64,000 nt of DNA from an uncultured Opitutia bacterium. GTDB lineage: Bacteria; Verrucomicrobiota; Verrucomicrobiia; Opitutales; UBA953. The DNA is taken from contig CAIMFJ010000008.1 of assembly GCA_903840355.1 (NCBI GenBank), positions 186,001 to 250,000 of the forward strand. The letters are read 5' to 3'. Below the pieces are notes generated by a model. It did not search any database, had not been told where the DNA came from, and saw only the letters and a list, made by a program, of their open reading frames with translations. The position numbers and the translations under genes are program-made. Shown piece by piece: positions 24,310-37,428 of this stretch; within the stretch, counting starts at the first letter, position 1; each line of letters begins with the position of its first letter.

Positions 24310-25254
24310 CTAAAAGAGCTCCCCTTGCTCCGTAGTCGGAGGTTTCTGAGGTGGAGGTGCCGGTGCAACTTCCTCCACTGGTGAGGCAGCTTTACCCAGG
24401 TAACGTCGCAACGTCGAATGCATCGCCATCGTAGTGAGAAACTCGGCCACGGCCGCAGGTTGCTCCTGCGGTGCTTCGCCCCACGTGAATTCATAATCAG
24501 TTCGGAAGGTAACCAACTGCAGATTAGTTCTAATCCGGTCTGCTTCGGCTTTCACCTGCTCGCGAAAGCGTTCAGGCTGCAACGTGTCGGCCGCCGTTAA
24601 CACGCCTTCAAGGCTACCATACTCGGTCAACCACTTCACCGCCGTCTTAGGGCCGACGCCTTTTAATCCTGGAATATTATCGGAGGTGTCGCCGACCAAA
24701 GCCAGATAAGCAGGAATCAGAGCGGGCGGTACGCCAAACTTTTCGGTCACGCCTTGGGCATCCAAACGGCGCCATCCCATGGCGGGATTAGCCGTTGGTG
24801 GCGGTGCCAATTGTATCACGGGTCCACCGACACACTGCCCGAAGTCTTTATCGGCACTGACAATAATACACTCATGTCCGACTTGACCTAAGCGCTGCAC
24901 CGCCGTGGCAATCAAATCATCAGCCTCGACGCCGCGCTGTTCCACGACTTGAAATCCTAACAACGCCGTGAGTTTTTTAATCTCCGGCAATTGGAGCACG
25001 ATATCTTCCGGCGTATCCTCGCGCTGCGCTTTATACTCGGGTAAAACGGCAAGGTGACGCGCCGAGCCACCGAGATCGAAAAAGACGACACCGCGGTCGG
25101 GCTTTTCGCTTTCCCGCAAATCGAGTAAAGTCTTCATCCACGCATGCAAGGCCCCGGTAGGAAACTGATCAGTGGGTCGGCGCAGGTTGGAACGCTCCAT
25201 CGCAAAGTGACTACGGAACACGAGGTTGAAACCATCGATGAGTAGCCAGCGCAT
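24310..25254 (-). CDS. 5'-3' exonuclease (FEN/PolA N-terminal-like) with C-terminal clamp-like motif
   Basis: A 314-residue stand-alone flap-type nuclease related to the 5' nuclease domain of DNA polymerase I. Metal-binding residues are visible in LIDGFNLVFRSHF (residues 5-17), VEADDLIATAV near 119, SADKDFGQ near 145 and LVGDTSDNIPGLKGVGPKTA near 196-215, which includes the helix-hairpin-helix that grips DNA. It likely removes primers or flaps. A Pro-rich tail from about residue 293 ends in QGELF, resembling the bacterial beta-clamp binding pentapeptide. Hairpins flank the gene on both sides. Whether a full-length PolA exists elsewhere cannot be seen. Confidence 0.88.
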   Translation of the reverse strand: MRWLLIDGFNLVFRSHFAMERSNLRRPTDQFPTGALHAWMKTLLDLRESEKPDRGVVFFDLGGSARHLAVLPEYKAQREDTPEDIVLQLPEIKKLTALLGFQVVEQRGVEADDLIATAVQRLGQVGHECIIVSADKDFGQCVGGPVIQLAPPPTANPAMGWRRLDAQGVTEKFGVPPALIPAYLALVGDTSDNIPGLKGVGPKTAVKWLTEYGSLEGVLTAADTLQPERFREQVKAEADRIRTNLQLVTFRTDYEFTWGEAPQEQPAAVAEFLTTMAMHSTLRRYLGKAASPVEEVAPAPPPQKPPTTEQGELF

Positions 25255-25291: not shown

Positions 25292-25321
25292 AAAAAAGCA
25301 GGCCCGCCAAAAGGCGGGCCT
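25292..25321 (-). terminator. Intrinsic terminator after the pilus-like operon
   Basis: Read on the minus strand, AGGCCCGCC, a four-base loop and GGCGGGCCT are followed by GC and six T. It lies 22 bases after the stop of the secretin gene and 38 bases before the start of the exonuclease gene. The stem core is the same 8 bp as in the terminator at 24274. Confidence 0.88.
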
Positions 25322-25343
25322 GAATAAACAACTGAAACTTTTA

Positions 25344-28300
25344 TTACTTAGCCTCAGGTGCCGGAGCGTCAGCCTTAGGAGCCGTCGCTGCAGGAGTCGT
25401 CGCTGCAGGAGTCGTCGCGGCTTCAATCGGTTCGCGATACACTGCACCACCTGGAGAGATGAGGACAGGGTTCGAGAAGGTAGAACCAGCGCGCATACCA
25501 GGATGGCTGCTGCGGAGGGTTGCACCACCTGGCGAGACGAGGTTAGCGGTGACGAAGACCATGAGGTTCTTCTTGTCCGTCGACTTACCGTTAGAACGGA
25601 AGGCCGAGCCGAGGAGAGGAATGTCACCTAAGATGGGCACCTTGTCTTGAACCGTTTGCACTTGTTCGCGGGTTAAACCACCGATGACAACCGTGGCGCC
25701 ATCGAAGACCGTGACGTCCGTGGAGACTTCGCGGATGTTGAAGATCGGTTGGAAGAAGCCCGAAGGAATCGTAACGGTAGTCGTACCCGAGATAGCCACC
25801 GAGGTACCACCGTATTCCACGAAGCCCTCAAACTCTACCACCTTGGGCTTGAGGTTTAAGGCGATTGAGTCGTCCGCCGCAACCGTTGGCGTCACTTCGA
25901 GAGTCACCCCGACTTCTTGCACCGTGAAGTCTTGAGGCGTACCAGCCGTGATCGTTACCCCACCACCGGTTGTACCACCCGCCACACCAGCGGCAGCAGC
26001 CTGACCGACGTTGGATTGGGTATCACCGTAGGACTGTGGGTAACGGAGGAGTTGAGCAATCTTGATGATCGCGGTCTTACCATCGAGCACCGTTAAGCTA
26101 GGTGCCGACATCAAGTCCGTACCATTGTTCTGCTCTAAGGCCTTCAGGAAGATTGAGAGGTCATAACCACCAATCGTACCAATCTTACCATTGTAAGTGC
26201 CGGTGGCACCCATCCAGCCGTTCGAACCACCGAAGTTAGGTTCGTTCGTGCCGTAGTTCTGCGAACCGATGGCAGGAGGCTGATTAGGAATCGAGAGGTT
26301 TTGATTCGTGGTTACTTGCGTTACAGCACCCGTAGTAGCATTCGTCGAAGTCGTCGTTAACTGACGGCTGATTTGGCCATTTTGGGCAACGGAAGAAGTA
26401 CCAAAGGTTTCGCTCATCGAGCGGAGGCCCGTTTGGGCGCGGACCGTGGTGACAGGCTGACCGTTAGCACCGACCGAAGTCGTCGAGAGCATCCAGTTCG
26501 AGGTGAACTCGTTCAAGGATTGTTCCGATACTTCGATAAACTTGGCTTCGATGTGGACCTGCTTGATGTCGGAATAGCGACGCAAGATGTTGCGCACGCG
26601 ATCCAGATTCTTGCGGGTCTGCGTCACGATTAAGTTCGTGCCGTCATAAGCCAAGGATGCACCTTGAGTTTCGAAGCTAACGCCCGAGCGGGTGAAGAAG
26701 TTCTTAATACCAGACTCTTCAGGACGCTCCGTACCACCCGCCGCCGCACCGCTAGCAGCGGCACCACCGAAGGGATTAGCACCACCAGCAGGGGCGGCAC
26801 CACCAGCAGGGGCGTTGCCGCCAGCGCTGATACCGGTCATCTTAATCACGGCGGAAGTTGAGAGCGGGAAGAACTCGGTTTCCAAATCGTTCGAACCCGA
26901 GTCAGGACGGATTTCGACGATACCTTGGTTGATGTTAAAGGTGAAGTTGGCCTGCTTGGTGATGATTTCCAGGGCCTTCTCCAACGAAACCGTGCGGAGG
27001 GTCATGTTCACCGCAGGATTCTTGCGATCAGGGTCAATGACGACCATGTTCACGCCCTTGCCATCTTTATCGTACGATTGCGAAACGATGACCAATTGGT
27101 CGATGGCACGATTGAATGGTAAGTCGCGAATGTTGATTTCGGGAATCGTGATCGAGCGCATCTTTTCCACGACTGGATCAGCAGCAGTGACGCCACCAAC
27201 GACGGTCGTTTCACGATTAAAGACTTCAGGAAGCTTCCACGATTCATCGAGGAGTTCCAGCAACTTGCCCTTGGTCACACCGCGATTCCAAGCACCCGAG
27301 TTATCGGACAAGATCTGGCGGATGCGAACTTGGTAAGCTTTCGCTTCAGCATTGTTCGGCTGATATTGGAGAATTTCGCGGTAAGCTTCGAGCGCACCTT
27401 GGTAGTCGCCGTAGAGGTAACGGGCCCGCCCTTTAACCAAGAGTTCTTGAACCTTATCATCCTTGGCCTTCAAGCCAGGGGAAATTTCTTCGACGCTACG
27501 GTAAGCAGGATCGGACTTATAGCGCAGGTATTCGGCGTGCAATTTCTTGGCGCTAGGATCATCGACGCCCATCAACTTTTCGTAATCGCGCACAAACGAC
27601 TCGGCTTTGTTCATTTCGCGAGCATCAATCGCCAAGAAGGCACGACGGGAAATGATTTGAGCGCGCACTTGCTTGATGCGTTCGACCGAAGACTTGGCCG
27701 AAATATTCGTAGGCAGGACTTTGGAGGCCTTGTCGAGGTAGCCATCGGCTTCTTCGAGGTCAGGACCGGTGCCACGTCGCGTGGCACTTTCGGCTTTATC
27801 AATCAGGTCGCCAGCTTCCTTTAACTTCGTAGCATTGGCTTTAGCCAAACGGACCACTTCTTCGCGAGCTTGGTCGTCAACGGGTTGGTCACCGGCTTCG
27901 CGACGCAAGTTAATTTCTTGCTTCGCCAAGGCGATAGAGTCGCGCGACTTTTGGGCGGCGGTGTTGTTAGGGAGAGCACCAGAGGCGCTGTCGAGGATTT
28001 CGAGAGCGCGCTTGTAGTTGCCCTTGTCGGCTTCAGCTTGAGCAACGCCAATCGCTTGATCGACTTCGGCGTAGAGGCTAGCGTGCTCGTTAGCGACTTG
28101 ATCGAGCAACGAAGCAGGCTTGGCAGGGGCTGCTGGGGTGACGACAGGAGCAGGAACTGGGGCGTTAGCCTTAGCTTGAGCAGCTTCAGCCGCGGCAATG
28201 GCTGCCTGGACGGAGGCTAAGCCTTCGCTGGCACCTTCGTCCTTAGAATCGATTTCTAAAATTTTGGAAAACTTCTCGCGTGCACCTTGCAAATTACCCT

Positions 28301-28442
28301 CCTCACGAGCTTTCAAAGCTTCGCCCATGAGTTTGGTTTTTTGCGCGATGGGATCACCGTCTTGAGCGACGAGTGAGCCTGCTGCTACTAAGACAGCGAG
28401 AAAACTGGCCCACGCGAGCCGTGTACGTTTTTGTTTCTTCAT
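25344..28442 (-). CDS. pilQ: PilQ-like outer-membrane secretin (Amuc_1098 type)
   Basis: A 1032-residue secretin, longer than most PilQ. The signal peptide covers about residues 1-26. Residues of about 30-380 are TPR-like (AREKFSKILEID, ALEAYREILQYQPNNAEA). Periplasmic N-domains follow (IPEINIRDLPFNRAIDQL and the N1-type TRKNLDRVRNILRRYSDIKQVHIEAKFIEV), with a Gly/Ala-rich insert near 540-570. The secretin core lies in the last third (VGVTLEVTPTVA, LNLKPKVVEFEG, VVIGGLTREQ, VPILGDIPLLGSAFRS). The tail has repeated AATTP units. It would form a gated ring in the outer membrane. It is the last gene of the five-gene cluster, matching Akkermansia gene order. Confidence 0.93.
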   Translation of the reverse strand: MKKQKRTRLAWASFLAVLVAAGSLVAQDGDPIAQKTKLMGEALKAREEGNLQGAREKFSKILEIDSKDEGASEGLASVQAAIAAAEAAQAKANAPVPAPVVTPAAPAKPASLLDQVANEHASLYAEVDQAIGVAQAEADKGNYKRALEILDSASGALPNNTAAQKSRDSIALAKQEINLRREAGDQPVDDQAREEVVRLAKANATKLKEAGDLIDKAESATRRGTGPDLEEADGYLDKASKVLPTNISAKSSVERIKQVRAQIISRRAFLAIDAREMNKAESFVRDYEKLMGVDDPSAKKLHAEYLRYKSDPAYRSVEEISPGLKAKDDKVQELLVKGRARYLYGDYQGALEAYREILQYQPNNAEAKAYQVRIRQILSDNSGAWNRGVTKGKLLELLDESWKLPEVFNRETTVVGGVTAADPVVEKMRSITIPEINIRDLPFNRAIDQLVIVSQSYDKDGKGVNMVVIDPDRKNPAVNMTLRTVSLEKALEIITKQANFTFNINQGIVEIRPDSGSNDLETEFFPLSTSAVIKMTGISAGGNAPAGGAAPAGGANPFGGAAASGAAAGGTERPEESGIKNFFTRSGVSFETQGASLAYDGTNLIVTQTRKNLDRVRNILRRYSDIKQVHIEAKFIEVSEQSLNEFTSNWMLSTTSVGANGQPVTTVRAQTGLRSMSETFGTSSVAQNGQISRQLTTTSTNATTGAVTQVTTNQNLSIPNQPPAIGSQNYGTNEPNFGGSNGWMGATGTYNGKIGTIGGYDLSIFLKALEQNNGTDLMSAPSLTVLDGKTAIIKIAQLLRYPQSYGDTQSNVGQAAAAGVAGGTTGGGVTITAGTPQDFTVQEVGVTLEVTPTVAADDSIALNLKPKVVEFEGFVEYGGTSVAISGTTTVTIPSGFFQPIFNIREVSTDVTVFDGATVVIGGLTREQVQTVQDKVPILGDIPLLGSAFRSNGKSTDKKNLMVFVTANLVSPGGATLRSSHPGMRAGSTFSNPVLISPGGAVYREPIEAATTPAATTPAATAPKADAPAPEAK
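25384..25418. repeat. 15-bp tandem repeat in the 3' end of the secretin gene
   Basis: Two exact copies of a 15-base unit beginning GTCGCTGCAGG (25384-25398 and 25399-25413) plus a five-base partial third copy. On the coding strand it gives AATTP pentapeptides. The period is a multiple of three, so copy-number change would alter length but not frame. Confidence 0.9.
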
Positions 28443-28460
28443 ACAATAAAGGGGTATTAA

Positions 28461-29405
28461 CTATTTGGTGGGGGTTGCAGGGGTGGAAGGGGTATTTGAC
28501 TTGGTAGCAGGGGGTGCCGCTGGAGCCGGAGGAGCAATCGTCAAAACCTCTGTAATGGTCTTTTTAGGCTTCTTGGGTTCGAGCGTAAAAGTCTTATCTA
28601 ACGTCACCGACTTAGCGTCTAAGTCAATGTGTTTGATAACGTAATGAGCCTCCTTATAGGTGAACTTATCACCAGGGCCATGAAAGGTCCATGTCTTGCC
28701 GGGGTCGGAGGTCGAAACGAGCTCAATATTCGTACGATCCGTAAACTCTAATACCTTAACATCATCAATTTCAACGAGTTGCCCCAAAACCTTATCATCT
28801 AGGGTCAAAACGTTACGGGTGATGGTAAAGCCGTCTTTGTCCTTAGATTTAACCTGTTTGTAGGACACAGGAATGATGTTCAATTGGGGGCTAAGGGGCT
28901 TCTTCAACTTACAGCGGTCAAAGTACTCCTTAGTCTCCGTGTTTTCCAAGAAGAACTCACGGTCTTCATCCTTGCCCGAACGGCCAGGCAGGAAGGACTT
29001 CAAGACGTAGGGATAGGTGGGGTGACCAATCTTAGTAAGCGCAACGCCAAAGGGAGGCAGCGGAATCACTTTCTTTAAACGCGGAACGTAATCCTTCAGG
29101 ACGGGATCCCACACGATATCAATCGTGGTGAAGAGGTCATAATTCCAACCGTCTTCATTTTCTTCAGGGCTCAACCAGTCTTTCACCAAATCGTCCAAGT
29201 CAGCTCGCTTCGAAGCAGGGTAAGCGACCCCTTTAGGTGCCGACACCAACTCGGGAATGGCTTTCGCACGAAATTCTTCTTCCGGAACCAGAGGCTTCAC
29301 CAAGCTAGGAGCACCCCCTTCAATCAGTAACCACCAAGCGGCACAGCCTACCAAAAGTAGGAGCGAGCCTAGTACAATCAGGAGTAAATCTTTACGGGCG
29401 TTCAT
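28461..29405 (-). CDS. Amuc_1099-type pilus-like system protein (PilP position)
   Basis: A 314-residue protein with one N-terminal hydrophobic segment (LLLIVLGSLLLLVGCAAWWLL), an extracytoplasmic body and a Pro/Ala/Thr-rich end. The LVGC within the hydrophobic stretch resembles a lipobox, but hydrophobicity continues after the cysteine, so a membrane anchor is as likely as a lipoprotein. A repeated beta-type pattern is visible late in the protein (TWTFHGPGDKFTYKEAHYVIKHID). It lies between the Amuc_1100-type and secretin genes with 11- and 18-base gaps, the place held by PilP in pilMNOPQ operons. Its role as inner-membrane link to the secretin is inferred. Confidence 0.8.
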   Translation of the reverse strand: MNARKDLLLIVLGSLLLLVGCAAWWLLIEGGAPSLVKPLVPEEEFRAKAIPELVSAPKGVAYPASKRADLDDLVKDWLSPEENEDGWNYDLFTTIDIVWDPVLKDYVPRLKKVIPLPPFGVALTKIGHPTYPYVLKSFLPGRSGKDEDREFFLENTETKEYFDRCKLKKPLSPQLNIIPVSYKQVKSKDKDGFTITRNVLTLDDKVLGQLVEIDDVKVLEFTDRTNIELVSTSDPGKTWTFHGPGDKFTYKEAHYVIKHIDLDAKSVTLDKTFTLEPKKPKKTITEVLTIAPPAPAAPPATKSNTPSTPATPTK

Positions 29406-29416
29406 TGTCCGGGGAA

Positions 29417-30502
29417 TTATTTCTTGGGTTCTCCTTCCGCGGTAGCGGATTTCTCTTCTGGAATCGTCAGGTAATCAAATTGGATGACAAACTCTGCAGG
29501 CTTCTCTTTGACGACGACCACACGGTCTTCTTTAGGGGCAGCACCAGGTTTGGCACCTGCGGCAGGAGCACCACCTAGGAAGAAATCAGGGACAGCGGCC
29601 GTCGCACCTGCCGCAGGCGCAGCCGTGGTAGTTGGAGCAGCTGTCGCTAAAAGTTTTTCTTCCTCTGGCTTAGCAAGCCCAACCTCGATGGAGGTAATCG
29701 CAAAGGGATGCCCCGAACTGCGCAGCTTGTTGATAAACGTACGCAAGGTCGACGTCGTGCCCACGAAACGAATGCGGAAGGACAACGCATCAAGTAGGCC
29801 GGGGCGGCGGAAAGAGCGCGAGGGCGTAAACTCGTCGTTTTCATTCTTCGAGCCATCGGCATCAGGCACATAACTACCAGCATTAGGCTTACCTTCGGGA
29901 ATTAAAACGTAGGTTTCAATCGGCTCACGATCAATGGACTGCAAGAGCAAGGGAGCACCTGCAGGGCGTGACTCCAAGAGTTGCTTAAAGAGGTAATCAA
30001 TGATGATGCGCTGTAAATCAACGCGAGGTAAGTCGCGCTTAGGCGAAGTACCCGCGTTGCGAATGTAGCGACGGAACCCAAACTCGCACTGATCATTAGG
30101 CGGCGTCTTCACGTCGCGATCGGCACAGAGCTTCTTCCATTCGTCGACGTTTTGTTTGATTAAAGAATTTAACTTTGAAGCCGAGGTACTGTTATCTGGC
30201 TTCAACGGTGCTTCGGGGCTGCCTGCAATAACTTCGCGGAGCGACTTCAATTGGTCCGTCAATTCGGTGAGGTCTTTCTCCGCTAAATCAACGTTCGCAG
30301 GCGTTAAAGAAATTTGATCCTTAAGGCTGCCTAAATTATCGCCCGCTAACAAAACGTTCACCTCGCGCTGGTGGCGCTCTAGCTCGACTAGGGTCTGCTT
30401 CTTACGCAACCAAGCCGTGACGCTCAACGCACAGCCGGCTACAAAGATAATCGCAATCAGCCCCAGCGTGATTAAAAAAGTACGGTTCTTAGACTTATCC
30501 AT
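29417..30502 (-). CDS. Amuc_1100-type pilus-like protein (PilO position)
   Basis: A 361-residue bitopic protein. Residues 1-8 are cytoplasmic, the membrane segment covers about 9-31, then a coiled coil (about 35-100) and an alpha/beta domain follow, with Ala/Pro-rich stretches near 290-335. The layout is that of PilO and of Akkermansia Amuc_1100, a protein reported to signal through TLR2 in mammals; that host activity cannot be inferred here. The final segment (VIQFDYLTIPEE) resembles the last strand in that family. The gene starts three bases after the stop of the PilM-like gene. Confidence 0.82.
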   Translation of the reverse strand: MDKSKNRTFLITLGLIAIIFVAGCALSVTAWLRKKQTLVELERHQREVNVLLAGDNLGSLKDQISLTPANVDLAEKDLTELTDQLKSLREVIAGSPEAPLKPDNSTSASKLNSLIKQNVDEWKKLCADRDVKTPPNDQCEFGFRRYIRNAGTSPKRDLPRVDLQRIIIDYLFKQLLESRPAGAPLLLQSIDREPIETYVLIPEGKPNAGSYVPDADGSKNENDEFTPSRSFRRPGLLDALSFRIRFVGTTSTLRTFINKLRSSGHPFAITSIEVGLAKPEEEKLLATAAPTTTAAPAAGATAAVPDFFLGGAPAAGAKPGAAPKEDRVVVVKEKPAEFVIQFDYLTIPEEKSATAEGEPKK

Positions 30503-30505
30503 GAC

Positions 30506-32200
30506 TTAGAGAGATTTATCCTTACGGATCACGAGGGTGAGAGTAAGGCGAGGAACGTTGGCCATCGCGTAATCTGGTTTGATTTCGCCGTCCGGAATTT
30601 CCTGAACGAAAGCCGAACCCTTCAACGCTGCGAGCAACTCTTGCTCACGCACATTCATTTCCTTCGCTTGGAACGGGCGCCCAGGCGCAACGCTCGGCAA
30701 GAGCAAGCGCACGGTGAGAACCACCTTCGTCACCGTAACCGGAGGAGCCGGGGGCTCACCCTCAGCGACGGGAGCAGCAGCGACTTGTTCATGGTGTACG
30801 TGTAGTTCTTCTACCCACGTATTCTTACAGTTAGAAAGGCGCTTCTGCAAATCGGCCATGAAGGCAGGCCAATTAGAGCGATTTAAGACCACGGATTCTA
30901 ATTGGACATTCGTAGCGAGAATGTCGGTAGACTTCTTACGGAAGTCTTTAATCTTACTGAGGTGGGCCGTCAGGTCCTTGGAACGGTGCTGCAACTTCGC
31001 AGCTTGGTCGCGATTGTAATCACCGGCTTCGCTAAAGGCGAACCACACAGGCCAAGGAGCTAAAGCAGCCAGTAAGGCGGCCGTGATGAGCTTCGGCTTG
31101 CGGGCATCAAAAGCAATCTGAGCCGCAATGTCGCGCGGGATTAAATTAACCCCGGAAGCATTGGGTAAAACCAGCCGTGCGGCCTCACCCACCACTTCCG
31201 AAAGTTGGCAACGAGCGGCATGCAACTGATCAGGATTAACCCCCGAACCCAGCGTCAAGACCGACGAAGGATCAAAAGGTTCAACCGGCAAACGCAACGT
31301 TTCGCACAGTTGCTCGGACAAGCCAGGCACCAACGAAGCCCGACCGGTTAAAAGAATGCGCGTGGGCTGACGTCCATTGGCACCCCGGCGAATGTTAATC
31401 AAACGACGGTTGATGTCTTGGGCGAGGCGGCGGATGAACGACTGCGCATTCGCTTGTAAAAGGGCGACTTGAGGGTCGGCTTCCGCTAAGTGCACGACGC
31501 CAGAATAGTAACCGACTTTAACGGCTTCAGCCGTAGCAAAAGGTTGACCGGTATTATCCGAGACGCCTTGCGTGAGTAAATTGCCACCCAAGTTAGCGGA
31601 TTGAATATTCGAACCCGATGGACCGACAAAACTCAACGTGGTCGAGCGTGCGCCCACGTTCACGATTAAGACTTCTTCGGTCGCCGAACCGCCGGCCAAC
31701 AAGAAAGCTTGGCTGTCTAGCAAAGGCGCAGCTTGCACCGAGTACGGACGCAGCCCCGTGCCCGAGACTAAATTCGCAATGCGACTCGCCACTTCCGTGC
31801 GCAACGCAAAGAGCAGGACTTCCGCTTCGACGCCGTCCGAGGCCATCACTTGGCTGTCCCAAATGACTTCGTTCAGAGGGTAAGGAATCGCATTCTGGGC
31901 TTCAAAGGCGACGATTTGAGCCTGACGCTCACGCTCGACTTGGGGCACCTTAAGCGACTTCTGCAAGAGCAAGAAGCTCGGGGCGATGACGGAAACTTGG
32001 CCCTTGATATTGTGGGCCTGCACTAACTCACCCAACGCCGTAATGGCGGCATTCAACCACTCGTCATCACCCGTCAAACCTGGGGGCAAATCGACGATAT
32101 AAAAATTTTCTAAAATAATGTTACCCGTCTCCGCATTGCATTCGGAAACCGAAACATGCGAAGCACCAAGGTTAACAATGATTGCCTTTTTTTGGCTCAT
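30506..32200 (-). CDS. pilM: PilM-like actin-fold protein fused to a PilN-like region (Amuc_1101 type)
   Basis: A 564-residue protein. Residues 1-345 form a PilM/FtsA-like ATPase fold: IIVNLGASHVSVSE as first phosphate loop, IVAFEAQNAIPYPLNEVIW near 96-114, VLIVNVGARSTTLSF as second loop and RILLTGRASLVPGL near 281. PilM alone is about 350 residues. After it comes VNLIPRD at 351-357, which looks like the N-terminal PilN peptide that binds PilM, then a membrane span at about 371-391, a coiled coil and a PilN-like domain to the end. So cytoplasmic PilM and inner-membrane PilN appear joined in one chain. The cluster has no separate pilN. Confidence 0.88.
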   Translation of the reverse strand: MSQKKAIIVNLGASHVSVSECNAETGNIILENFYIVDLPPGLTGDDEWLNAAITALGELVQAHNIKGQVSVIAPSFLLLQKSLKVPQVERERQAQIVAFEAQNAIPYPLNEVIWDSQVMASDGVEAEVLLFALRTEVASRIANLVSGTGLRPYSVQAAPLLDSQAFLLAGGSATEEVLIVNVGARSTTLSFVGPSGSNIQSANLGGNLLTQGVSDNTGQPFATAEAVKVGYYSGVVHLAEADPQVALLQANAQSFIRRLAQDINRRLINIRRGANGRQPTRILLTGRASLVPGLSEQLCETLRLPVEPFDPSSVLTLGSGVNPDQLHAARCQLSEVVGEAARLVLPNASGVNLIPRDIAAQIAFDARKPKLITAALLAALAPWPVWFAFSEAGDYNRDQAAKLQHRSKDLTAHLSKIKDFRKKSTDILATNVQLESVVLNRSNWPAFMADLQKRLSNCKNTWVEELHVHHEQVAAAPVAEGEPPAPPVTVTKVVLTVRLLLPSVAPGRPFQAKEMNVREQELLAALKGSAFVQEIPDGEIKPDYAMANVPRLTLTLVIRKDKSL

Positions 32201-32220
32201 ACTTGCAGGGTCAGCAAAGG

Positions 32221-32904
32221 TTAGCGGGCAGGTACATCCTCGCGGATGAACTCAGGGGAAGAAGGTACCACCGGTTGGTCAAAGTAGAGCACGAGGTATT
32301 GGGGACGAAGAATGCCAGGGCTATTCACGACGCCACGGTCCGCCGCATCCTTAGCGGGATCAAACTTAGCTTTCGTGTTTAAGTCTTTATGCACCGAACG
32401 AACCGCCTCGGGCAGGAGGTTGCCCTTCGCATCAAAGAGAGGCTCTTCGTTGCCGGCGACTTCGACTTGCACGTAGTAATAATCAGGCTCTTTGCGGAGC
32501 TGATCGCGCTTCACAATATCGCCAGGGAGGTAGAACAAAACGGAGCGAGGTTGGTTCGCTTCCAGAGTCAGCACCGTGACCGCCGAACGGTAGTAATTCC
32601 AATCTTCAGGCTTCTTACTTTCCGTCTTATAAATTTGGGTAACCGTCACCTTAACTTTATCGACCCACTTCTTGCTCGAGGCCTTAGGATCAGGGTTATT
32701 GTTGGCCATCAACTCAACTTGCATCCGGTTCCAAGGGTAGGTCTGACCGCCCAATTTAACCTGAGCAAACTTCACATCGCGGACCAAAATGACGCCCTTA
32801 CCCGCCGCACCGCCTTCGCCACCTTTGGCGCTTTGAGCGTAAGCAAACGAAACAGTCAAAACGACTGCCCAGAGACTAGCAAAGAGGGCTCGAATGTGGG
32901 GCAT
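32221..32904 (-). CDS. Amuc_1102-type pilus-like protein
   Basis: A 227-residue secreted protein with a signal peptide (ALFASLWAVVLTVSFAYAQ, cleavage near residue 23), then a beta-rich body (VKFAQVKLGGQTYPWNRMQVEL, KVKVTVTQIYKTE, AVTVLTLEANQPRSVLFYLPGD) that fits an immunoglobulin-like fold, as described for the Akkermansia relative. The ATG at 32904 was chosen since it starts the signal peptide; a longer frame adds 22 unlike residues. It is the first gene of the five-gene cluster, and the promoter should lie in the 126 bases shared with the divergent zinc ABC genes, where no confident promoter was found. Confidence 0.8.
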   Translation of the reverse strand: MPHIRALFASLWAVVLTVSFAYAQSAKGGEGGAAGKGVILVRDVKFAQVKLGGQTYPWNRMQVELMANNNPDPKASSKKWVDKVKVTVTQIYKTESKKPEDWNYYRSAVTVLTLEANQPRSVLFYLPGDIVKRDQLRKEPDYYYVQVEVAGNEEPLFDAKGNLLPEAVRSVHKDLNTKAKFDPAKDAADRGVVNSPGILRPQYLVLYFDQPVVPSSPEFIREDVPAR

Positions 32905-33030
32905 GGGAGATATTGGCGTAATGACCGATTTGACTCTGGCAAATGCAAAAGGCGGGAACCACGGGAACAATTTTTAAATGCAAAAAACTTGCGTTAATTA
33001 TAGGGTGCCACCAATGGTTGGTTTTAGCCC

Positions 33031-33894
33031 ATGCGAGGGTTGCTGCTCATCCTACTGCTGTTCACAGCAAACACCCTCCTGCTGGCGGAAGGTAGGGTCG
33101 ACATTGTCAGTAGTTTTAGCCTACCGGACGACTGGGTCCGAGCGCTGATTTCCCCCAAAATCACCCATCGCCCCTTAATCGGCCCTAAAAGCGAATTTCA
33201 CGGATACCCCCTAACCGCTCAAGACGCCCGGGATCTGCAAGAGGCTAAATTGATTGTAGGTTGCTCCAAAGCGATGGAACCTCAACTCTATGAATGGGTT
33301 ACAAAGAATCATCGCGAAGCCGATACCTTGTGGCTAGAAGAAACCGCAGGAATCCCAGCCCTCCCCTACTCGCACGCCTGGACCAACCCGACTTGGGTTC
33401 GCCTCATGATCCAAAACTTAAATCAGGCGCTGGCGCTCAAATTCCCTGAATTAAATACTCAAGTTACTGTTAATAAACTACTTAAGGAAATAGATGATAC
33501 AGATAATCAGCTTAAAACTTGGTTCGACTCCCTCCCGCCAGCCCGCCGCGTCCTCATCACCCAGCACCCTAACCTGCAACCATTCGCCGACCAATATGGG
33601 CTAAGGGTAGTCGATACGATTTTGAACAGCCCTTCCGCAGAAGCAGCCGACCCCTCTGCCCAAAAATACCGTCAACTGCTTCATGAGATCAAGGCCTTGA
33701 ACATCAAAGTCATCGTGGTCGATGAAGGGCAAAACACCAGCATCGCCCAAAACCTGTGCCGCGATGCCCACTTAACCCCTCCACTGTCCCTTTCCTTCGA
33801 ATACCTTCAGCCCGAAGGACAACCAGGGTCCAGTTGGTCAGAGATGATGCTCCACAACGGCCGCCTGCTTAAGGAGGCCTTACTAACGCCTTAA
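33031..33894 (+). CDS. Zinc/manganese ABC transporter substrate-binding protein (ZnuA-like)
   Basis: A 287-residue periplasmic metal-binding protein with a signal peptide (GLLLILLLFTANTLLLA). Likely metal ligands sit at the usual family places: His in SEFHGYPLTAQDARDL (about 57), His in YSHAWTNPTWVR (about 115), His in ITQHPNLQPFADQYG and an acid in VVVDEGQNTSIAQ. The His-rich loop of many zinc-specific ZnuA proteins is absent, so manganese or another metal is possible. The ATPase and permease genes follow without a break, giving a full importer. Confidence 0.85.
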   Translation: MRGLLLILLLFTANTLLLAEGRVDIVSSFSLPDDWVRALISPKITHRPLIGPKSEFHGYPLTAQDARDLQEAKLIVGCSKAMEPQLYEWVTKNHREADTLWLEETAGIPALPYSHAWTNPTWVRLMIQNLNQALALKFPELNTQVTVNKLLKEIDDTDNQLKTWFDSLPPARRVLITQHPNLQPFADQYGLRVVDTILNSPSAEAADPSAQKYRQLLHEIKALNIKVIVVDEGQNTSIAQNLCRDAHLTPPLSLSFEYLQPEGQPGSSWSEMMLHNGRLLKEALLTP

Positions 33895-33904
33895 CTAAAG
33901 TCGC

Positions 33905-34630
33905 ATGCTCCAGCACCTACTACCTACTTGGACCTACGCCGCCGTTGAAAAAATTCCGGCCGATGGTCCCGTGGTGCTGGCAGATAACTTAAGTGCCGCA
34001 GCGACCCCACAAGGTCCTTGCATCCTGCATCAACTGAACTTCTCCATCCAGCGTCACCAACACACGGCACTGGTAGGACCCAATGGCTCCGGTAAATCCA
34101 CCCTGCTACGCTTACTCGCGGGTCTCATCACCCCTCAAACGGGCTCTTTGCAAGTTCTGGGTACTACCCCGCGACGCGGACGACCCGCCATCGCTTACCT
34201 CGCCCAGAACCTTCAACTGACACCCAATTTTCCGCTCTGCGTGCGCGATTTGGTGGCGATGGGGACTTACAGCCGACTGGGTTGGTTAAAACCCAAACAA
34301 GCTAAAGAAGATCGCGTTGAACAGGCCCTCGCAACCTTAGCCCTGCAATCCATCGCCCAACGCGACGTGCATCAAATCTCAGGAGGGCAACTGCAACGTG
34401 CCCTGCTCGCCCGAGCCCTGGCCCAACAAGCCACCTTGCTACTACTCGATGAACCTTTTGTCGGATTAGACCGCGGCAGTCGGGCCATCATCGAAGAGTT
34501 TCTTTTTCAATCAACTCCAGCCTTCACGGTCGTGATGGCTACGCACGATTCCGCAGACCTGCATCGTTGCCACCAAACCATCGCTTTGCGCGACGGTGAG
34601 ATTCAATCTGGAGGCGGCTACCATGTTTGA
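33905..34630 (+). CDS. Zinc/manganese ABC transporter ATP-binding protein (ZnuC-like)
   Basis: A 241-residue cytoplasmic ATPase. Walker A is VGPNGSGKSTLLRLLAG near residue 57, the signature ISGGQLQRALLARAL near 158, and Walker B TLLLLDEPFVGLDRGSR near 178, with the switch histidine in VVMATHDSADLHR. An unusual 30-residue N-terminal stretch precedes the first strand; a later start is possible but no better one is evident. The stop overlaps the permease gene by eight bases. Confidence 0.88.
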   Translation: MLQHLLPTWTYAAVEKIPADGPVVLADNLSAAATPQGPCILHQLNFSIQRHQHTALVGPNGSGKSTLLRLLAGLITPQTGSLQVLGTTPRRGRPAIAYLAQNLQLTPNFPLCVRDLVAMGTYSRLGWLKPKQAKEDRVEQALATLALQSIAQRDVHQISGGQLQRALLARALAQQATLLLLDEPFVGLDRGSRAIIEEFLFQSTPAFTVVMATHDSADLHRCHQTIALRDGEIQSGGGYHV

Positions 34631-35438
34631 GTTCTTAACTGCTCCGTGGAGCGAAAGTTTTTTTCTGCGAGCCCTTGTCGCCGTCATTCTAACCAGCATC
34701 ACGTGCGCGTGCCTCGGTGCTTACGTCGTCCTGCGTCGCATGGCCTTCGTCAGCACCGCCCTCACGCACTCTATTTTGCCTGGCGTAGTACTCGCCTCGC
34801 TACTCGGACTATCGCCCTATTTAGGAGCCATGGCCGCCGCGTTACTCACGGCGTTAGGGGCCGCTTGGTTGGCCGCTCGTCCCGAAACCAGCGAAGATAG
34901 TGCCATCGGGATTATGCTCTCCGTGATGTTCGCCGCGGGGATTGCGCTCATGCAAGTCGCCCACGCCTGGCGCGATTTTTCGGGACTGCTGTTTGGTAGC
35001 GTGGTCGGCGTAGGGCCCGCCGACTTACAAGTGATTGCCGTCACGACAAGCGTGGTGCTGGTTTGCTTAATCGCTCTACACAAAGAACTCGAGCTAGCTT
35101 CCTGCGACGAAGCCTACGCCGACCTCATTGGGACCCGCCCAGGTTTATTGCGCACCGTATTACTCGTGCTCATCGCCCTGGCAGCCGTGGCGTGCGTTCG
35201 CTTAGTCGGTGCCCTTTTAACCACGGCCCTGTTTGTCATCCCCGCCGCCATGGGGCTCTACCTCGGACGAAATCTTAAAGAGGTCATGCTCTGGAGTATC
35301 GGTGGCGCCTTGCTCGGAGGAATCAGCGGTCTCTACCTTTCATATTATATTCAAAATTTACCTACCGGCGCGAGCATCGTGCTGTGCACCGCGATTCCCT
35401 ATTTGGCAGCCCGTATCTGGAGCCGACGAAAGCGTTAA
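34623..35438 (+). CDS. Zinc/manganese ABC transporter permease (ZnuB-like)
   Basis: A 271-residue permease of the ABC-3 family with about eight membrane segments. The conserved early part reads ITCACLGAYVVLRRMAFVSTALTHSILPG, and the family's later motif occurs as ACVRLVGALLTTALFVIPAAMGLYLG. The ATG at 34623 inside the ATPase gene end was chosen, as the longer frame repeats ATPase-gene sequence. Its last four bases overlap the end of the convergent gene at 35435; no terminator was found. Confidence 0.9.
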   Translation: MFEFLTAPWSESFFLRALVAVILTSITCACLGAYVVLRRMAFVSTALTHSILPGVVLASLLGLSPYLGAMAAALLTALGAAWLAARPETSEDSAIGIMLSVMFAAGIALMQVAHAWRDFSGLLFGSVVGVGPADLQVIAVTTSVVLVCLIALHKELELASCDEAYADLIGTRPGLLRTVLLVLIALAAVACVRLVGALLTTALFVIPAAMGLYLGRNLKEVMLWSIGGALLGGISGLYLSYYIQNLPTGASIVLCTAIPYLAARIWSRRKR

Positions 35439-35880: not shown

Positions 35881-36927
35881 TTAAGGCTTCGTCGTGGGCG
35901 TAGGACCTTCACCCGCAATACCCTTACGCATTTCGGTATCCGCCTTGAGATTTTCTAAGCGCTGATAATCCAAGTAACCCATGCGACCGGTGCGCAACGC
36001 TTCGGCTAAAGCTTGCGGCACTTGGGCTTCGGCTTCGACCACGCGCGAACGCATCTCTTCCACCCGCGCTCGCATTTCTTGCTCCAAAGCCACGGCGGCC
36101 GCCCGACGGATTTCGGCCTGAGCTTGTGCCATGTTCTTGTTCGCTTGAGCTTGTGCCTCTTGCAACATCGCACCGACATTCTCACCGACATCGACGTCGG
36201 CGATATCAATCGAGATAATTTCGTACGCCGTCCCCGCATCCAATCCCCGCTCTAAAACGGTCTTCGAGATACGATCGGGGTTTTCTAAAACTTGTTTGTA
36301 AGATTCGGACGAACCAATCGTGGTTACAATCCCTTCCCCCACGCGGGCAATGATGGTGTCTTCTTGCGCCCCACCCACGAAACGCTCGAGGTGCGTGCGC
36401 ACGGTCACGCGGGCTTTCACTTTTACCTGAATCCCATCCTTCGCCACGGCATCAATCGTGGTGCGACCGCTGGTAGGATTCGGGCAATCAATCACCTTCG
36501 GACTCACGGAATTTAAGACTGCTTCTAGGACAGATTTATTCGTGCCACGCGTCGCAATGTCGATCGCACAGGCGCGATTCCAATCTAACACTAAACCAGC
36601 TTTCTGGGCCGCAATTAAAGCCTGCACGGTTTGCACGATATTACCCCCGGCCAAATAGTGAGCGTCTAATTTATCGGTTTCGATGGGGATGCCAGCTTTC
36701 GTGGCCGCAATCTTGGCATCGACAATCATCCCGTAAGGAACGCCGCGGAAGCGCATGCCAATTAAATCAAACACCCCCACATGCGCGCCGGCTAAACGAG
36801 CGCGCACCCACACGGCTAAAAACGAAAGGAGGAATAAAACGAGAATCAGTAAAGCCGTGGCGGCAATGACAGCGACAATCGGCCAAGTGACCGAAGATTC
36901 CTGGGCGAAGAAGATCAAGTTAAGCAT
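35881..36927 (-). CDS. floA: Flotillin-like protein FloA (SPFH family)
   Basis: A 348-residue membrane-associated scaffold protein. The hydrophobic hairpin covers about residues 15-45. The family marks are [42 protein letters not shown] and [17 protein letters not shown]. An SPFH domain with [26 protein letters not shown] follows, then an Ala/Glu-rich coiled coil (about 245-315). FloA organises functional membrane microdomains. Length and sequence fit closely. The NfeD-type gene lies 18 bases upstream, its usual partner. Confidence 0.93.
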
Positions 36928-36945
36928 AGATTTGGGGATTAAAGA

Positions 36946-37428
36946 TTAACGAACCACGCGCACGGTAACGCGTCCGGCCGCGGCTTCAGTGATGACGACT
37001 TGGGCCCCGCGATCGACATAGCCATCGAGGGAGAAAGCTTCGAGAATGGCGCCCTCTAATTCGATTTTTCCAGAAGGTGCGAGCACGGTCTTAGCCTGAG
37101 CAGTCTTGCCAATAAAATGCGACAACTCGACGACCGCGGCACCGACGTTCTGCGTTTGATTAGTCATCGCTTGGCCCACCTTAGTGGACATCACAAAACG
37201 GCGGAAGGCCCAGAATTCTAAGCCTAACCCGACGCAGAAAACGACGCAGAACAGAACGCATTTCGCACTGCCATAGGCTGCAGAAAAATAAATCCCGGCA
37301 AAAGAAATCAAGGCCCCAGCAAAGCCTACCACCACCGTGGGGAGGAAAAATTCTGCCCCAATCAAAACCAGCCCGCCAAGCAATAAGGCCCAAGCTGCTG
37401 TGAGAGAAACCGCAGGTGTATCAGACAT
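36946..37428 (-). CDS. NfeD family membrane protein
   Basis: A 160-residue protein with three or four membrane segments in the first 85 residues (LLLGGLVLIGAEFFLPTVVVGFAG is the first long one). A C-terminal OB-fold domain follows, with GKTAQAKTVLAPSGKIELEG and LDGYVDRGAQVVI, the classic NfeD end. It is the short NfeD form, without the ClpP-like protease domain. NfeD proteins work with flotillins in membrane organisation, and the FloA gene is directly downstream. Confidence 0.9.
   Translation of the reverse strand: MSDTPAVSLTAAWALLLGGLVLIGAEFFLPTVVVGFAGALISFAGIYFSAAYGSAKCVLFCVVFCVGLGLEFWAFRRFVMSTKVGQAMTNQTQNVGAAVVELSHFIGKTAQAKTVLAPSGKIELEGAILEAFSLDGYVDRGAQVVITEAAAGRVTVRVVR

Follow-up and report, generated by a model that had tools for sequence, protein, structure and literature searches.

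In type IVa pilus (T4aP) systems the pil genes follow the order M-N-O-P-Q, and in type II secretion systems (T2SS) GspL is a fused subunit with a cytoplasmic and a periplasmic part. The gene set considered here is already known from Akkermansia muciniphila, where Amuc_1098–1102 are described as pili-like in two reports (PMC5332112, PMC4960237), the first of which calls Amuc_1100 an outer membrane pili-like protein and the second of which, using immunogold labelling, locates the Amuc_1098 protein to the outer membrane. Two further papers label Amuc_1100 as PilO (PMC11573778) and assign genes for type IV pilus assembly to the ancestor of Akkermansia (PMC10540074). Amuc_1099–1102 have been named MUL2 and argued to serve attachment and glycan uptake; their synteny is reported for Akkermansiaceae and is frequent in other Verrucomicrobiales, less so in Chthoniobacterales and absent from Methylacidiphilales, and coaE and rho are listed as neighbours (PMC13174399).

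We have analysed a stretch of 64,000 nucleotides (the window) from an uncultured Opitutia bacterium (assembly GCA_903840355.1, contig CAIMFJ010000008.1), in which five co-directional genes, labelled X, MN, O, P and Q for this analysis, occupy positions 32904–25344 of the minus strand with gaps of 20, 3, 11 and 18 bases. The cluster is a divergent form, from Opitutae, of the Akkermansia-type (MUL2) pilus cluster already known, to which it and the synteny reported below add detail. It very probably supplies a type IV pilus, the remaining genes of which are dispersed through the genome, with its trans-envelope alignment complex and its outer-membrane pore. None of the titles listed in our literature searches, by which absence from print is not established, concerned this cluster in Opitutae.

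The locus resembles the A. muciniphila cluster (MUL2 plus Amuc_1098, 'PilQ') in its five genes, their order and their domain content. It differs in that none of its proteins reaches a curated cut-off, that its P has no counterpart to the D-x-D-x-DG stretch seen in Akkermansia-type P, and that the downstream neighbour is a 5'-3' exonuclease gene rather than coaE-rho. With the T4aP PilMNOPQ systems of Pseudomonas, Myxococcus and Thermus it shares the PilM domain, a PilN-type motif, a PilO-like fold, a secretin and the gene order; however, M and N are fused, the secretin carries tetratricopeptide repeats (TPRs), an extra gene X comes first, and P is longer, is anchored in the membrane and yielded no PilP domain. 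The GspL-GspM-GspC-GspD set of T2SS follows a parallel plan, but by profile MN is PilM and not GspL.

The five genes and their assignments

A preceding sequence-only reading had proposed five co-directional genes with gaps of 3–20 bases, and these boundaries were upheld. X (32221–32904) was set to start at 32904 because the corresponding Met, residue 23 of the open reading frame at 32221–32970, is kept in 28/28 aligned X proteins; the resulting protein has 227 aa and, judged by eye, an export signal at its N-terminus. Directly 3' of Q lies a terminator-like stem of 10 pairs, 9 of them GC, with a T tract (25299–25322, minus strand). The region holds 17 such sites compared with 11.9 ± 4.1 in shuffles, and the stem after Q is the richest in G-C pairs; its position right behind Q suggests that X-MN-O-P-Q are probably one transcription unit.

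The same reading had equated the genes, in order, with Amuc_1102, 1101, 1100, 1099 and 1098, and the MUL2-type order 1102-1101-1100-1099-(1098) is indeed found here by gene order and homology. Among NCBIfam models, Amuc_1098 matched Q (2.8e-105; 353.1 bits against a curated cut-off of 750), Amuc_1101 matched MN (4.4e-78; 263.6 against 650) and Amuc_1100 matched O (1.3e-10; 41.2 against 180); since all of these scores lie below cut-off, the window proteins are not filed in those families. The Amuc_1099 and Amuc_1102 models had no match among the five proteins, and X and P are mapped to Amuc_1102 and Amuc_1099 by place together with profile comparison, the link for P being weak.

Residues ~3–340 of MN (30506–32200) form a PilM domain (PF11104, 8e-19, over cut-off), with further matches to TIGR01175 (4.3e-24; 85.2 bits, under the cut-off of 133), NF045709 (4.4e-78, under cut-off) and the PDB PilM 3jc8 (3.1e-16). 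PilM and FtsA families were matched, and no GspL family appeared at E<=1. Downstream of this domain come the letters NLIP (352–355), a membrane helix from ~371 and a periplasmic tail; a Pfam search gave no PF05137 match in MN. The Leu of the motif N-L-x-P is kept in all 61 aligned rows, its Pro in 60 and its Asn in 51; 43 of the rows are the window and its close relatives. The PilN motif reads INLLP. As a conserved N-terminal motif of PilN is bound by PilM (PMC5805733), the NLxP motif and helix that follow the PilM domain lead us to read MN as a PilM-PilN fusion, and the sequence supports both the PilM identity of the domain and the fused PilN-type part.

The protein encoded by O (29417–30502) is predicted by AlphaFold2 to have an N-terminal membrane helix, long helices and an alpha-beta core (predicted local distance difference test, pLDDT, 73.8; predicted template modelling score, pTM, 0.63). 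In Foldseek the model retrieved ten Amuc_1100 chains first (E 3.2e-8 to 4.1e-6), followed by Myxococcus PilO 3jc8 (9.4e-3) and Pseudomonas PilO 2rjz (1.6e-2; prob 1.00). VIA gave Z 15.6–16.8 for Amuc_1100 and, for PilO, 7.7 with 2rjz (root-mean-square deviation, rmsd, 4.6; 122 aligned), 7.3 with 3jc8 (rmsd 19.1) and 6.2 with 5uvr, the top non-Pil row standing above this last one at 6.3. Profile comparison with Akkermansia-type O reached Prob 99.3; sequence profiles of O, P and X searched against the PDB gave no Pil or Amuc entry. The modelled match to Amuc_1100 is clear; the direct margin for PilO over other folds is modest, and the place and layout of O agree with its being PilO-like.

P (28461–29405) occupies the Amuc_1099 place. 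Its model has a membrane helix at 3–28, joined by a linker of low confidence to a C-terminal part rich in beta structure (pLDDT 74.9, pTM 0.47), and profile comparison with Akkermansia-type P gave a weak match (Prob 34, E 4.3e-4). From its place and layout P would be PilP-like. An assignment as a lipoprotein was dropped; the window's Cys21 is present in 1/37 aligned rows. In other families (L108, L109, L111 and L115; G, C and L numbers denote the genomes, contigs and loci of our sample) P has, between its membrane helix and its beta-rich part, D-x-D-x-DG stretches and Cys pairs that by eye resemble those of a zinc ribbon, with TSP3_bac over cut-off in L111 only.

Q (25344–28442) carries a secretin domain (PF00263, 8.2e-36) and an N-terminal TPR region (TPR_2, 4.4e-7), with a weak STN match (7.6e-4, under cut-off). 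Matches to NF042912 (2.8e-105), GspD (1.3e-42) and PilQ (5.9e-34) all remained under cut-off, and we describe Q as a PilQ/Amuc_1098-like TPR-secretin. Amuc_1098-type secretin frames occur as adjacent pairs in L105 and L106 and in G014, G025, G009 and G055, and further copies are found elsewhere in the A. muciniphila-like genome G111 (one) and in G066 (two).

X matched the Amuc_1102-type alignment in profile comparison (Prob 76.8, E 2.1e-5). Two homologues form a weak bridge between it and Amuc_1102: X of L113 matches the window-type profile at 4e-29 and NF042424 at E 0.0017, under cut-off, and X of L112 gives 2e-25 and 0.012; X of L110, L118 and L119 had no NF042424 match. In Pfam, X had no family at E<=1, and no Pil family was matched. 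Four Pil names had been offered for these five genes, and X is the one left without; PilM, the fused N, the PilO-like O and the secretin stood up. A role for X as a pilin was rejected, as the class III prepilin N-terminus (PF07963) is absent and none of the genome's ten N_methyl matches lies on C8, the window's contig.

Conservation of the cluster and the dispersed pilus genes

A scan of genome contigs for MN yielded 46 loci, 44 of an Opitutae type (L019–L062) and 2 from Lentisphaeria. The first name is a working label, as the titles of these records vary and three point to other organisms. The gene order had been expected to recur in related genomes, and all genes found in the 44/44 Opitutae-type loci are ordered X-M-O-P-Q on a single strand; 35/44 have all five genes and 9/44 are cut by contig ends. 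By tblastn positions X and M lie close together in L054 and L060, and a long P-Q gap in L034 is perhaps an artefact of frame picking. In Lentisphaeria, M and Q were matched in one locus and M only in the other. Among 20 regions from other genomes (L102–L121), 15 have MN, an O-sized gene, a P-sized gene and Q consecutively. Of the other five, L103 and L111 miss one middle gene, the picking of open reading frames having passed over the P frame in L103 and the O frame in L111; L117 has a single 552-aa gene between MN and Q, and L116 and L120 were left out of the count. An X-sized gene lies 5' of MN in 15/20 of these regions by our own reading. L102 is the A. muciniphila-like copy (G111), whose X matches Amuc_1102 of PDB 7dsz at 6.3e-145 and whose proteins bring five NCBIfam models over cut-off.

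The sequence-only reading had also noted that no pilin, prepilin peptidase or assembly ATPase is nearby, and correctly so: none of the genome's T2SSE, N_methyl or A24_N matches lies inside the window. Its further idea, a subcomplex and secretin on their own, was not borne out by a search of the source genome, which is 99.3% complete. Five strong T2SSE matches and one weak one were found. Four of the strong matches are pilus-type motors, three in a pilB-pilT-pilB-pilC array on contig C4 and a second PilT on C5 (451.9 and 349.9 bits for PilT and PilT2; cut-off 319.1); the fifth is the ATPase of a separate T2SS, also on C4. GspD, GspE and GspF are the best families for the D, E and F genes of this system, all under cut-off, and its remaining genes are named by order and N_methyl matches. 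The genome has two secretins, Q and one inside the T2SS, one prepilin peptidase match, ten N_methyl matches of which four are in the T2SS region, and ComEC. As motors, platform, peptidase and prepilin-like genes thus lie elsewhere, the isolation of the cluster in the window reflects dispersal and not absence.

In the pilB array (L066:7816–13596) two PilB-type ATPases flank one PilT, with PilC following. Both PilB paralogues also occur in G111 (L136), without PilT between them.

We surveyed 240 Verrucomicrobiota genomes that are at least 90% complete. Of these, 232/240 matched the Amuc_1101 model at E<=1e-3 and 217 (hand count) at E<=1e-20, a limit that ordinary PilM might still pass; the model also matched 8/14 control genomes, 0 of them over cut-off. 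PilT was over cut-off in 229/240. With MN counted at E<=1e-20, 213 genomes have both, 4 MN only, 16 PilT only and 7 neither (Fisher p 7.6e-6, uncorrected for kinship), and MN mostly accompanies PilT across the phylum. The MN-only genomes are G113, G203, G200 and G136. For G136 the missing PilT may be an assembly gap, its genus mates G107 and G194 having PilT. The other three lack PilT and keep PilB1- and PilB2-like ATPases together with MN and Q; PilC was seen in the stretches taken from G203 and G200, MN and Q of G113 are on different contigs, and G203 has no X-sized gene 5' of MN.

From these observations a mechanism may be proposed. MN would place a PilM-like actin fold in the cytoplasm, in one chain with a PilN-like membrane and periplasmic part, and would couple to the PilB/PilC motor. 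It could pair with O in the membrane and periplasm, P may bridge this pair to the secretin, and Q would form a gated pore whose TPR region perhaps does the work of a pilotin; X may be a conserved exported accessory. PilB1, PilB2, PilC, PilT, PilD and the pilins would be supplied from the other loci, and the likely output would be surface filaments for attachment and for the capture of polysaccharide or DNA. Such a scheme sets the well-studied Amuc_1100 and its neighbours within the ordinary type IV pilus framework. As a PilO-like protein, Amuc_1100 would by its layout be an inner-membrane-anchored periplasmic part and not a surface fibre. For Opitutae it provides a defined pilus locus on which questions of attachment and of polysaccharide or DNA uptake can be asked, and natural variants, in which PilT is lost with MN, Q and PilB kept or a compact gene set occurs where MN is absent, offer a way to test what each part does.

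Weighing the readings

Several observations weigh against the assignment of the cluster to the dispersed pilus. The comparison of the two middle proteins bore out the earlier expectation for O, which matches PilO; for P, no PilP or GspC row was among the Foldseek or VIA matches listed, and profile searches of its sequence in Pfam and the PDB found no PilP. Q scores higher with GspD than with PilQ (146.1 versus 117.8 bits). The motor genes are themselves equivocal in name: the two PilB-type ATPases score 612.4/605.9 and 601.6/611.3 bits as PilB/GspE, both under cut-off, PilC is best as GspF (419.7, cut-off 424), and their naming rests in part on PilT lying between the two ATPases. The co-occurrence of MN and PilT is confounded by common descent. 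The genes and their order, the PilM domain, the NLxP motif, the PilO-like fold, the secretin and the presence of motors are read from sequence or model; all contacts, the equation of P with PilP, the role of X and the pilus cargo are interpretation.

A further such point is that 16/240 genomes have PilT and lack MN at E<=1e-20. Three of them, from the window's taxonomic order (G088, G010 and G140), have a compact M-N-O-P-Q-like set, like the window's cluster in plan and unlike it in that M and N are split, with PilT in the same genome and a protein of 165–183 aa in the P place. The profile scan of this set covered G088, with which G010 agrees by layout, as does G140 except for an N place that was not picked. 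The G088 secretin has PilQ as its closest family (265.4 bits, cut-off 284.35), the first gene of the set resembles PilM (9e-9), and no significant Pil match came from its N, O and P places. In G080 an MshL-like secretin occurs along with PilB and PilT; G131, G121 and G050 have strong Amuc_1098-type secretins with MN below the threshold; G003, G081, G086, G196 and G133 were covered by secretin scores, and G029, G032 and G130 were left out of this breakdown. G105 keeps its motors and has no MN match. This 1.7 Mb genome contains a gspD with internal stops adjoining gspK-, gspL- and gspM-like frames (L134, G105:C6:68000–78000); its candidacy as gene Q, as a 'secretin with stops', was rejected, the gene being the gspD of a T2SS beside GspK/L/M-like genes.

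Some of these points would suit a second T2SS platform, with MN GspL-like, O GspM-like and P GspC-like. The fusion layout of MN fits such a platform, as does the preference of Q for GspD, and P has a membrane helix and a Cys21 too rarely conserved for a lipoprotein, unlike PilP as presented in PMC5805733. However, MN matches PilM over the whole domain and GspL not at all at E<=1, the fold of O leads to the Amuc_1100 and PilO families first, MN co-occurs with PilT, and a T2SS that includes a secretin is already encoded elsewhere in the genome; we therefore consider this explanation improbable. Even less credit is due to a stand-alone envelope channel that has lost its pilus role. The window without pilus motor or prepilin matches would accord with it, as would the three genomes without PilT, but the motors, platform, peptidase and prepilin-like genes are present elsewhere in the genome and the PilT-less genomes keep both PilB-like ATPases, by which the idea is largely refuted.

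A special case of the pilus assignment, following the MUL2 proposal, is that the motor drives an apparatus for glycan attachment and import, with twitching secondary. The report of MUL2 synteny in Akkermansiaceae and of fucoidan uptake by marine Akkermansiaceae (PMC13174399) speaks for it, as does the retention of MN and Q in three genomes without PilT. The operon holds no carbohydrate gene and, as the genome has ComEC, DNA uptake fits equally; we regard the glycan role as a real possibility that is nonetheless somewhat less probable than its opposite. More tentative still is the thought that Verrucomicrobiota possess a distinct type IV pilus lineage, marked by the PilM-PilN fusion, the TPR-secretin, the exported X and two co-conserved PilB paralogues with PilC, in which PilT retraction is dispensable. 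It would perhaps descend from one ancestral locus X-MN-O-P-Q-exonuclease-coaE-rho-pilB-pilT-pilB-pilC, later split, and could capture glycan rather than twitch. In the limited literature compared, we did not meet the PilMN fusion, the compact set, the retention of MN, Q and PilB without PilT, or coaE-rho at both loci.

Synteny with coaE-rho and flanking genes

The genes coaE and rho connect the cluster with the pilB operon. They lie 3' of Q in the A. muciniphila-like G111, in G066 and in G101, and in G013 with other genes intervening. In G175 a 702-aa frame matching CoaE and Rho stands just 3' of Q (L140:927–3035), possibly as a fusion or a run-on start. G056, with the order Q-exonuclease-orf-coaE-rho, unites the Opitutae and Akkermansia arrangements. 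In all, five families have coaE-rho beside the X-MN-O-P-Q cluster, and within the window's taxonomic order the pair adjoins the pilB operon: 5' of pilB1 we found coaE and a Rho protein in G203, G200 and G105 and coaE with an unscanned Rho-sized frame in G113; the genome of the window has coaE alone there. Their presence beside both loci hints that cluster and pilB operon may once have been one pilus locus. The arrangement is not universal: among ten regions taken 3' of Q, five (G062, G083, G046, G014 and G009) had no coaE or rho match.

In the window, Q is followed by a stand-alone 5'-3' exonuclease gene (24310–25254, minus strand), the sole 5_3_exonuc_N match of the genome, so that DNA polymerase I presumably has no such domain of its own. 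The gene lies 3' of Q in 31/44 Opitutae-type loci, the other 13 contigs stopping within or before Q. Its reading as a competence part was rejected; as the sole genome copy, separated from Q by the terminator-like stem, it is likelier a housekeeping gene. Upstream of X, divergent genes on the plus strand (33031–35438) appear by eye to encode a metal ABC transporter, the first of them being present at this position in 40/44 Opitutae-type loci. Further upstream, within 35881–37428 on the minus strand, lies a FloA flotillin gene (35881–36927; PF12127, 7.9e-140), and the adjoining 160-aa frame looks NfeD-like by eye.

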